Part shown: positions 24,005 through 27,885 of the stretch, one piece after another
Layout: each line of letters starts with the position of its first letter
Numbering within the stretch: position 1 is the stretch's first letter
Source: Actinomycetales bacterium
GTDB taxonomy: Bacteria; Actinomycetota; Actinomycetes; Nanopelagicales; Nanopelagicaceae
Assembly (NCBI GenBank): GCA_018970885.1
Contig: JAGWVL010000009.1
Location: 1-33,474 of the forward strand
DNA: 33,474 nucleotides
Direction: 5' to 3'
Notes under the pieces: model-generated
What the model was told of the DNA's origin: nothing
Databases searched by the model: none
Seen by the model: only the letters and a program-made list of their open reading frames with translations
Program-made: the position numbers and the translations under genes

Positions 24005-24121
24005 TTAACTAGCGAAATAAAACGCATTGTGCGACTTCAATAAGAAATTATTGAAGACCTTTGGACTGGTAGGCCAGAGAACAGCACAGTGGAGGACCTC
24101 CAGATATAGATAGGTAGATAC
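24005..24121 (+). promoter_or_regulatory. Structured leader upstream of rpsM
   Basis: This 117-bp gap contains a perfect 9-bp hairpin with a GAAA loop (24035-24056), a 4-bp CTGG/CCAG hairpin (24066-24077) and a near-palindrome, TGGAGG-A-CCTCCA, at 24090-24102. None is followed by a U-run. The apparent ribosome binding site is AGG at 24112-24114, 7 bases from the rpsM ATG. The position is where E. coli has the S4-binding pseudoknot of the alpha operon, so a translational control role is possible but unproven. Confidence 0.45.
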
Positions 24122-24934: not shown

Positions 24935-25561
24935 ATGGCTCGTTATACCGGAGCAGACTGCAAGCGTTGCCGTCGCGAAAAAGTAAAGCTCTTCCTTAAG
25001 GGCTCAAAGTGCGATGGACCAAAGTGTCCGATCGAATCACGTCCTTATCCACCAGGACAGCACGGCCGTGGCCGTTCAAAGGAATCTGAGTACCTATTGC
25101 AGATGCGCGAAAAGCAAAAGTGCGCACGTATTTATGGTGTTCTAGAAAAGCAGTTCCGTGGTTACTACGAAGAGGCTAACCGTAAGCAAGGCAAGACTGG
25201 TGAAAACCTGCTTGTCATTCTTGAGACCCGTCTCGACAACGTTGTGTTCCGTGCAGGCTTTGCAAAGAGCCGCGACATGGCACGTCAGCTAGTTCGTCAC
25301 GGTCACTTCTTGGTAAATGGTAAGAAGGTAAACATTCCTTCATTCCGTGTCTCTGCAATGGACATAATTGATGTTCTTCCAAAGTCACTGGATCTAACAC
25401 CATTCATCGTTGCTAGCGCAGAGCTTGGCGAGAAGGCGGTACCAGCATGGATGGAGGTTGTTGGTTCACAGATGCGAATCATCATTCACTCAGTTCCTGC
25501 TCGTGCAGTCATCGACACACAGGTTCAAGAGCAGCTAATCGTTGAACTTTATTCCAAGTAA
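24935..25561 (+). CDS. rpsD: 30S ribosomal protein S4, zinc-binding form
   Basis: A 208-residue S4, a primary assembly protein that nucleates the 30S body and helps form the mRNA entry channel. Cys9, Cys12, Cys26 and Cys31 make an N-terminal zinc site, the C-plus form. The S4 RNA-binding domain follows near residues 96-160 (TRLDNVVFRAGFAKSRDMARQLVRHGHFLVNGKKV). It ends in IVELYSK, as expected. S4 is the classical regulator of alpha-type operons. A strongly structured 124-bp gap separates it from rpoA. Confidence 0.99.
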   Translation: MARYTGADCKRCRREKVKLFLKGSKCDGPKCPIESRPYPPGQHGRGRSKESEYLLQMREKQKCARIYGVLEKQFRGYYEEANRKQGKTGENLLVILETRLDNVVFRAGFAKSRDMARQLVRHGHFLVNGKKVNIPSFRVSAMDIIDVLPKSLDLTPFIVASAELGEKAVPAWMEVVGSQMRIIIHSVPARAVIDTQVQEQLIVELYSK

Positions 25562-25570
25562 TTTTTGAAA

Positions 25571-25665
25571 GTCTTGTGCGAAAGCGCAAGACATGCGGGC
25601 AGTACCTAGCAGGGCCCCTGATTGAAGGATCAGGGGAAAGAGCGGAAATCAAATAGTGGATTTCC
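25571..25665 (+). promoter_or_regulatory. Three tandem hairpins between rpsD and rpoA
   Basis: Hairpin 1 (25571-25592): 9 bp with one G-U pair and a GAAA loop. Hairpin 2 (25615-25636): CCCCTGAT with ATCAGGGG, a perfect 8 bp around 6 bases. Hairpin 3 (25644-25665): GGAAATC with GATTTCC, a perfect 7 bp around 8 bases. None ends in a U-run. Hairpin 1 starts 9 bases after the rpsD stop codon and hairpin 3 ends 8 bases before the GAGGAG site (25675-25680) of rpoA. They may tune rpoA level by partial termination, processing or RNA protection. Confidence 0.6.
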
Positions 25666-25685
25666 CCGAATGAAGAGGAGCAGCA

Positions 25686-26699
25686 GTGCTAATTGCACAA
25701 CGTCCAACTCTCAGCGAAGAAGTAGTTTCTGAGCATCGCTCACGGTTCATCATTGAACCGCTAGAGCCGGGCTTTGGTTACACACTTGGCAACAGCATGC
25801 GTCGTACATTGCTTTCATCTATCCCAGGTGCAGCAGTTACGAGCATTCGCGTTGCAGGCGCACTTCACGAGTTCACCACTCTTGAAGGGGTCAAGGAAGA
25901 TCTCACCGATATCGTTTTGAACATCAAGAACTTGGTGCTTTCATCAGATAACGATGAGCCAGCAGTTGTTTACATCCGCAAGTCAGGTGCCGGTTCAGTT
26001 ACTGGTGCAGATATCGCGGTTCCAGCTGGCGTAGAAGTTCACAACCCTGAGCTTCACATTGCAACACTTAACGGCAAAGGCAATCTTGAGATTGAACTTA
26101 CAGTTGAGCGTGGCCGCGGTTACGTGACGGCGGTACAAAACAAGCAGGCTGGCGCAGAAATCGGTCGCATTCCTGTTGACTCAATCTATTCACCAGTTTT
26201 GAAGGTTACATACAAGGTAGAAGCAACTCGCGTTGAACAGCGCACAGACTTTGATCGCCTTGTTGTAGATGTAGAAACAAAGCCATCAATGAAGCCACGC
26301 GATGCTGTTGCATCAGCTGGCCGTACATTGGTTGAGCTATTTGGTCTTGCACGTGAGCTCAATCTTGATGCTGAAGGCATCGAGATGGGGCCATCTGTAA
26401 TGGATGCAGCACTAGCTGCAGATCTTGCTCTTCCAATCGAAGATCTAGATCTAACAGTTCGTTCATACAACTGCTTGAAGCGCGAAGGCATTCACACAGT
26501 TGGCGAGTTAGTTAACCGTTCAGAGGCTGACCTGCTAGATATCCGTAACTTTGGTTCAAAATCAATTGATGAGGTCAAGGCAAAGCTTGTCTCAATGGGA
26601 ATGTCTCTCAAGGACAGCCCAGTTGGTTTCGATCCAACCCAACATCAGAACTACAACGCATCAGTCGACGATGATTTCGTCGATGCAGAGCAGGCCTAG
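25686..26699 (+). CDS. rpoA: DNA-directed RNA polymerase subunit alpha
   Basis: A 337-residue alpha subunit, whose dimer is the scaffold for RNA polymerase assembly. The N-terminal domain (about 1-230) opens with [13 protein letters not shown] and includes [25 protein letters not shown]. The C-terminal domain (about 250-315), which contacts UP elements and activators, includes [20 protein letters not shown] and [15 protein letters not shown]. An acidic tail ends it. The start is GTG 25686, with GAGGAG 5 bases upstream. rplQ follows after 11 bases, the standard order. Confidence 0.99.
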
Positions 26700-26710
26700 G
26701 AGAATCAATA

Positions 26711-27076
26711 ATGCCAACACCAAGTAAAGGTCCTCGTCTGGGTTCAGGCCCATCACATGAGCGACTTCTTCTACGCACACTCGCAGAGCAGTTGTTCGAG
26801 CACGGCAAGATCACGACAACAGAGGCAAAGGCAAAGCGCCTACGTCCATTGGCAGAGAAGTTAGTTACCTTCGCAAAGAAGGGCGATCTAGCAGCTCGTC
26901 GTCAGGTCATGGCGCAGATTCAGAACAAGAGCGTTGTACACGCACTCTTCACTGAGATCGGTCCACGTTTTGCAACTCGTGAAGGTGGATACACACGTAT
27001 CACTAAGGTTGGTCCTCGCAAGGGTGACAATGCACCAATGGCGGTAATCGAGCTACTCACTGAGAAAGATAAGTAA
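26711..27076 (+). CDS. rplQ: 50S ribosomal protein L17
   Basis: A 121-residue L17 located near the tunnel exit. The [50 protein letters not shown] segment and the [24 protein letters not shown] ending are diagnostic. It is the last gene of the alpha cluster. The next possible terminator is not in the 26-bp gap but inside the beginning of truA. Confidence 0.99.
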
Positions 27077-27102: not shown

Positions 27103-27885
27103 ATGACGGAACCCACTCTCTACCCTGAGAGTGGGTTTCTTCGTTTACGGATTGATCTTGCATACGATGGAACAAACTTTTCTGGATGGGGAAAACAACC
27201 AGATCGTAGAACGGTGCAGGAAGAGGTTGAGAAGGCGTTGACAACTGCAACTCAATCAAAGATTGAAACAATTGTTGCTGGTCGCACAGATGCAGGCGTG
27301 CATGCCACAGGTCAGGTTATCCATGTGGATGTACCCGACTCATTGATTTTGGATGATTTGAGCTACAAGTTAAATCGCATGTTAGATACCGATGTTCGGA
27401 TCATGAAGGTTGCGGTTGTTAATGGCCCATTCAACGCACGTTTTTCTGCGCTACGTCGCCATTACACATACAAAATTTTGGATGGTAATCAAACGATTTC
27501 GCCACTGGATCGCTTAGATGTGGCCTCCTGGTACCGCGTTCTAGATGTTGATCTCCTGAATCAGGCAAGTGCATTAATGCTGGGTAGCCATGACTTTGCC
27601 GCCTACTGCAAATTCCGCGAAGGCTCTACAACAGTTCGAAATCTTCAACGATTTGAATGGAGAAGGGACACTGCCGGGTTTCTCATCGGTGATGTAGTTG
27701 CTGATTCATTCTGCTATTCAATGGTTCGCAACTTGGTAGGTGCAGTTGTCTGCGTGGCAGATGGACGATTTGGTCCAGAATGGATCGAACAGACACTAGA
27801 CAACAAAGTTCGGATCTCAGATAGCTTGGTCTTTCCAGCCTGTGGACTCACCCTTCGCCAAGTGGACTATCCGAGCGTGGATTAA
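27103..27885 (+). CDS. truA: tRNA pseudouridine(38-40) synthase TruA
   Basis: A 260-residue enzyme that isomerises uridines 38-40 in the tRNA anticodon stem-loop. Catalytic Asp63 lies in AGRTDAGVHATGQ, and the N-terminal RIDLAYDGTNFSGWGKQP and the FAAYCKFREG and VRNLVGAVVCVADGR blocks are typical. The start at ATG 27103 is the only in-frame choice before the conserved RIDLAYDG block. It has no obvious ribosome binding site, and a terminator-like hairpin begins 7 bases into the gene. Expression is probably low and dependent on readthrough from rplQ. It occupies its usual place after rplQ. Confidence 0.97.
   Translation: MTEPTLYPESGFLRLRIDLAYDGTNFSGWGKQPDRRTVQEEVEKALTTATQSKIETIVAGRTDAGVHATGQVIHVDVPDSLILDDLSYKLNRMLDTDVRIMKVAVVNGPFNARFSALRRHYTYKILDGNQTISPLDRLDVASWYRVLDVDLLNQASALMLGSHDFAAYCKFREGSTTVRNLQRFEWRRDTAGFLIGDVVADSFCYSMVRNLVGAVVCVADGRFGPEWIEQTLDNKVRISDSLVFPACGLTLRQVDYPSVD
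27110..27147 (+). terminator. Terminator-like hairpin inside the truA start region
   Basis: AACCCACTCTC pairs perfectly with GAGAGTGGGTT (11 bp) around the loop TACCCT, then TTCTTCGTTT follows as a broken T-tract. It is the best intrinsic terminator candidate for the alpha operon, yet it covers codons 3-12 of truA. Ribosomes starting truA would melt it, so it could act as an attenuator. Confidence 0.6.

Follow-up and report, generated by a model that had tools for sequence, protein, structure and literature searches.

A conserved hairpin just upstream of rpoA in the class Actinomycetes, a putative site of translational control

Introduction

The alpha operon is a textbook case of translational control. 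The S4 pseudoknot of the Escherichia coli operon is catalogued in Rfam as RF00140 (Alpha_RBS). This pseudoknot is located before rpsM and spares the cistron for RNA polymerase alpha, whose regulation is said, in the part of the source available to us, not to depend on S4 (PMC10931766). Another cis-regulatory RNA in the same operon is the L17-Actino-Proteobacteria leader (RF03132), which has 56 model positions and, according to the available part of its description, is found in actinobacteria between rpoA and rplQ (PMC7247131). In Mycobacterium tuberculosis, rpoA has a 5′ UTR of 152 nt that ranks among the abundant 5′ UTRs; it was aligned with the UTR of rpsM, and coordinate regulation was proposed (Arnvig 2011, PMC3207917, available in part). 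The accessible portion of that account describes no hairpin, wide conservation or covariation in the rpoA UTR.

Here we describe H3, a small hairpin before rpoA in actinomycetes. It shares with the L17 leader that it is a putative cis-regulatory RNA of the actinobacterial alpha operon, and with the E. coli pseudoknot that it may serve translational control there. However, it is a plain hairpin that lies before rpoA, rather than a pseudoknot before rpsM or a leader before rplQ. A known Rfam family was ruled out by Rfam 15 covariance scans of the window and its relatives, which gave no match at H3. RF00140 has no covariance-model match there and RF03132 none at gathering level, and when the spacer of the window was searched with E-values of up to 10 allowed, only other families came up. 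No description of an rpoA hairpin in actinobacteria was found in the literature searched, some of it available in part, and H3 is apparently not yet catalogued.

The rpsD–rpoA Spacer

The window, which is the whole stretch of 33,474 nt that was analysed, contains the following features around the spacer:

24935–25561, + strand: rpsD (S4), the cistron upstream of the spacer, from the ORF list
25571–25592, + strand: H1, a strong hairpin with a GAAA loop directly 3′ of the rpsD stop, from the inverted repeat, single folding and relatives
25615–25636, + strand: H2, a strong hairpin, from the inverted repeat, single folding and relatives
25644–25665, + strand: H3, the conserved element, with stem 25644–25650/25659–25665 and an 8-nt loop at 25651–25658 (AAAUAGUG)
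25649–25659, + strand: the H3 core, UCAAAUAGUGG, within H3
25675–25680, + strand: the Shine–Dalgarno-like GAGGAG (SD) of rpoA, identified by eye, 9 nt 3′ of the H3 stem
25686–26699, + strand: rpoA, RNA polymerase alpha, GTG start, from the ORF and relatives found by protein search
26711–27076, + strand: rplQ (L17), 11 nt past rpoA

The ORF listed as rpoA was named by recognition of its sequence. The end of rpsD at 25561 and the GTG at 25686 delimit a gap of 124 nt (25562–25685). The initial annotation had noted that most gaps in this cluster are under 20 bases, which holds in general, although the rpmJ–rpsM gap is also long (about 117 nt). The 11 nt between rpoA and rplQ leave no room for a separate rplQ leader in the window. 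Past rplQ, the terminator scan lists a 13-bp hairpin with a short T-rich tail (27108–27139), which overlaps the start of the ORF at 27103–27885. As for a promoter specific to rpoA, two sigma-70-like sites are listed in the window, both of them outside the spacer.

The inverted repeats found in the spacer coincide with H1, H2 and H3. They bear out the three stems originally annotated, with arms of 9 nt (including one G–U), 8 nt (perfect) and 7 nt (perfect), as well as their lack of U-tracts: no T run lies 3′ of any stem, and none of the stems is listed by the terminator scan. A T5 run is located 5′ of H1. The spacer folds with a minimum free energy of −45.3 kcal/mol, compared to a mean of −30.4 for shuffled sequences (z = −4.37; 0 of 200 shuffles as low). 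When folded singly with short flanks, the hairpins have z scores of −4.75 (H1), −3.18 (H2) and −2.29 (H3). H3 is the weakest fold of the three, yet it is the conserved one. In the window, H2 and H3 could also pair with each other over 7 bp through their 3′ arms (25633–25639/25661–25667), but this alternative is probably a chance occurrence, since it is absent in the relative L007.

Variable Hairpins Behind the Upstream Stop Codon

H1 is recurrent in position and variable in sequence among relatives. Compared to the window, L005 has two H1 pairs swapped (C–G to U–A and U–A to G–C) and one broken, and a much different, longer stem occupies the position in L007 and L068. Beyond the window, H2 is kept only in the nearest relatives; L007 and L068 show compensating changes in its stem, and smaller stems occupy the same place in L014 and L019. 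Among the 44 distinct spacers from the same genus, 15 span 51–66 nt and contain little besides H3, which rules out the three hairpins as one conserved unit. The remaining 29 exceed 70 nt, and in the longer spacers a hairpin of differing sequence often follows the rpsD stop. Strong hairpins of unrelated sequence are also often seen 3′ of the upstream stop elsewhere in the class, in both rpsD–rpoA and rpsK–rpoA spacers (L113–L152, L184–L188), and 32 of 44 folded class regions have z below −2. H1 and H2 stand apart from H3 as hairpins that evolve quickly and lie at the 3′ side of the upstream cistron, and these variable hairpins could possibly protect its 3′ end.

The three hairpins together might act as a partial terminator, or as a processing or protection site, that sets the ratio of alpha to ribosomal proteins. 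The frequency in the class of strong hairpins right after the upstream stop is in keeping with such a role, and hairpin clusters are argued to act as terminators in the available part of one study (PMC8355165). However, the stems lack a U tract, the trio is not conserved, and the H3 loop is conserved in sequence, something not required of a terminator or a 3′ protector. Moreover, the accessible data for M. tuberculosis rpoA give an RPKM of 150 for the UTR and 119 for the CDS, a ratio of only 1.3 (PMC3207917), which also goes against the partial termination first suggested for this spacer. We regard this as the least probable of the readings considered. An intrinsic terminator, in the sense of a GC-rich stem followed by a U run, was rejected, and the spacer is absent from the terminator-scan listing.

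Structure and Covariation of H3

A covariance model of H3, R1, matches the window at 25636–25672 with 34.2 bits (E = 4.2e-8), whereas the next best match has an E-value of 0.55. In most relatives the core reads UCAWAUDGYGG. Across the class, the loop and the closing C–G pair are near-invariant, while the rest of the stem varies freely.

The initial annotation had suggested that covariation among relatives would support the hairpins, and this came out strongly for H3 but not for the three as a unit. In an alignment of 60 selected sequences (A1), seven of the nine pairs were changed on both sides, and the covariation score was 0.510, compared to 0.223 when shuffled (0 of 500) and at most 0.176 when slid. 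The rows of A1 were picked by core pattern, and the invariance of the core in this alignment is therefore partly a product of selection, but the counts for the stem are independent of that choice. Of 152 loci, 22 failed the A1 core pattern, having TCAAATAGAGG or TTAAATAGTGG instead, and further variants occur in L286 and L302. In a second alignment (A4) of separately fetched loci, fitted to R1, 73 distinct rows out of 78 gave a score of 0.372, compared to 0.182 when shuffled (0 of 500) and at most 0.114 when slid. The covariation shows that H3 exists as a structured RNA. No conserved alternative fold of H3 was seen.

Distribution Across the Class

The rpoA loci were fetched through the RpoA protein and not through the motif, which gave matches in 58 of 101 genomes of the genus, 111 of 121 of the family and 195 of 197 of the class. 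From the class, upstream regions were read for 40 of the genomes with an RpoA match and for five more. The core, in the pattern T[CT]A[AT]ATN[AG]NGG, was present in all 139 distinct rpoA upstream regions (94 from the family and 45 from the class); by chance, it would be expected in an estimated 0.3% of regions at equal base frequencies. The most common core was TCAAATAGTGG (68 regions), followed by TCAAATAGCGG (19) and by TCAAATAGAGG, TCATATGGCGG and TCATATAGCGG (15 each), with seven others. As these counts include no fixed ATG and no fixed ANGGA, the motif of a CsrA-like site, a CsrA-like site and an upstream ORF were dropped as candidates.

A separately fetched set of 80 loci came from named genomes, which were scanned using an alignment of RpoA. 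R1 matches H3 before rpoA in 78 of these at an E-value of 0.0044 or better, and a 79th, Streptomyces dysideae (L302, core TCACATAGCGG), has an E-value of 0.055. The model did not find H3 in the one remaining locus, from a metagenome-assembled genome (L303). Named loci with H3 include Mycobacterium, Streptomyces, Amycolatopsis and Micrococcus.

When whole genomes of the phylum were searched with the model, 30 of 296 matched, with one match each, all of them the genome of the window or members of its class. For 19 of the 30, the match could be compared with listed rpoA positions, and all 19 agree. This search under-calls, because five class genomes with no model match (G227, G300, G317, G324 and G332) carry H3 on direct reading. 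Outside the class, H3 was found in one of 15 genomes read directly (L190, E = 0.018). L190 belongs to a small neighbouring class of three genomes, two of which have a match between rpsD and rpoA (L190 and L314), while the match in the third is away from rpoA. H3 is an ancient element common to the whole class Actinomycetes.

H3 Belongs to rpoA

The distance from the end of the core to the rpoA start is 21–30 nt in 138 of the 139 regions, and 66 nt in L129 (s.d. 1.9 without L129). In contrast, the gap from the upstream stop to the rpoA start in these regions ranges from 51 to 360 nt (s.d. 36). Both L129 and L299 have extra sequence between H3 and the SD. H3 is also present where rpsK rather than rpsD is upstream (e.g., L117, L120, L140, L150 and L185–L188), and since it is kept in such loci, it belongs to rpoA. 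H3 occurs specifically in front of rpoA, at a nearly fixed distance from the start and irrespective of the upstream gene.

By pattern search, the H3 core occurs as a single copy in the genome of the window. A dispersed intergenic repeat (REP or MITE-like) was rejected on this single occurrence and on the one model match in each matching genome. Two Streptomyces-like genomes have a second rpoA-like gene (G240:C1:5622417–5623430 and G268:C1:5465125–5466138); the model search found one H3 in each genome and no second H3 at the extra gene.

H3 might also be the recognition hairpin of an endonuclease cleavage site that separates rpoA–rplQ from the upstream message, as its intercistronic location and conserved loop would allow. 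However, the tight spacing to the SD is unexpected for such a site, and a single copy per matching genome is unlike a general RNase site, which makes this reading very improbable.

Other RNA Elements of the Alpha Operon

Because homology between the rpoA and rpsM UTRs is reported in the available part of PMC3207917, the rpsM leader was checked for a copy of H3. None was found, either in 20 loci of the class or in the window. The actinomycete rpsM (S13) leader looks like an H-type pseudoknot (L206–L225, about 25–140 nt before rpsM), with a CCCCGG/CCGGGG stem and a loop containing CGGAGG that pairs with a downstream CCTCCG about 25–34 nt before the start. Covariation is seen in the second helix, as CAGAGG/CCTCTG (L209, L221), CGGGGG/CCCCCG (L212) and CGAAAGG/CCTTTCG (L225). 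A pseudoknot script placed this structure among its two best candidates for 18 of the 20 loci, but not for L207 and L222, where it is visible in the sequence, nor for the window, where the leader was placed by eye at about 24052–24101. The rpsM leader has no Rfam 15 match.

The RF03132 leader was found between rpoA and rplQ in five of 20 loci, all Streptomyces-like (L157, L158, L159, L160 and L181), where it co-occurs with H3. Streptomyces-like genomes thus seem to have three RNA elements in the alpha operon, namely the rpsM pseudoknot, the rpoA hairpin and the L17 leader.

These elements bear on whether H3 is itself a ribosomal protein leader, for L17 or for S11, S13 or S4, that controls rpoA–rplQ. 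This would be a special case of regulation by a trans-acting factor. H3 lies in a ribosomal protein operon, with rplQ directly following rpoA in the window, and, like such leaders, it is a covarying structured RNA upstream of a gene in such an operon. The first gene it would regulate, however, is not a ribosomal protein gene, since H3 adjoins rpoA and rplQ comes second. Mimicry of an rRNA site is frequent, but not obligatory, in ribosomal protein leaders. Run against the rRNA loci (16S and 23S) from three genomes of the class, R1 revealed no such mimicry by H3 (best E = 0.87, at chance level); short string overlaps with 23S, such as GATAGCGGA, were given no weight. L17 becomes less likely as the ligand because five of the 20 loci carry a separate leader before rplQ, and S4, S11 or S13 because, as noted, the leader of rpsM contains a covarying pseudoknot of its own and no copy of H3. 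Thus, although such leaders are common in these operons, according to the accessible part of PMC7247131, we consider a ribosomal protein leader quite improbable here.

A Putative Translational Control Site

We lean, with modest confidence, towards H3 as a putative rpoA-specific translational control site with a trans-acting factor, a reading drawn from sequence comparison. In this reading, H3 would act in cis, as an RNA element that serves rpoA alone in the class Actinomycetes. A factor, probably a protein, would read the loop and closing pairs of H3 and alter the access of the 30S subunit to the rpoA SD, so that the level of alpha could be set independently of the ribosomal protein cistrons on the same mRNA. 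The near-invariance of the loop suggests sequence-specific recognition. H3 itself does not cover the SD, but because its stem ends just 5′ of it, a bound factor would touch the 30S footprint. The fixed place beside the SD and the near-invariant loop favour translation initiation over transcription or decay as the step affected. The original idea that the spacer sets alpha apart from the ribosomal proteins fits this reading, although only H3 is conserved and not the three-hairpin unit to which that role was assigned.

However, a constitutive positive role, by ribosome docking or insulation of the ribosome-binding site, would yield the same conservation of H3. In that case, H3 would be a translation enhancer or insulator that contacts 30S, or frees the rpoA ribosome-binding site from upstream structure, and has no ligand. 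That H3 keeps a fixed distance from the SD and the start is consistent with this, as are the strong hairpins just upstream in many class members (the 32 of 44 regions above). Insulation alone, however, needs neither a near-invariant loop nor an invariant C–G closing pair, and we find this explanation doubtful.

If H3 does act through a trans-acting factor, the boldest ligand candidate is alpha itself. Free RNA polymerase alpha would bind H3 and repress its own translation, making H3 a candidate autogenous operator; we consider this unlikely. If true, this would account for the uncoupling of alpha from the ribosomal proteins encoded on the same mRNA.

H3 would form a new Rfam family. As a small, near-universal hairpin before actinomycete rpoA, it offers a concrete element to mutate and for which to seek a factor, for instance in the laboratory species Streptomyces coelicolor or Mycobacterium smegmatis. 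Should alpha prove to be that factor, H3 would be an RNA operator, conserved across the class Actinomycetes, through which a subunit of RNA polymerase controls its own synthesis.
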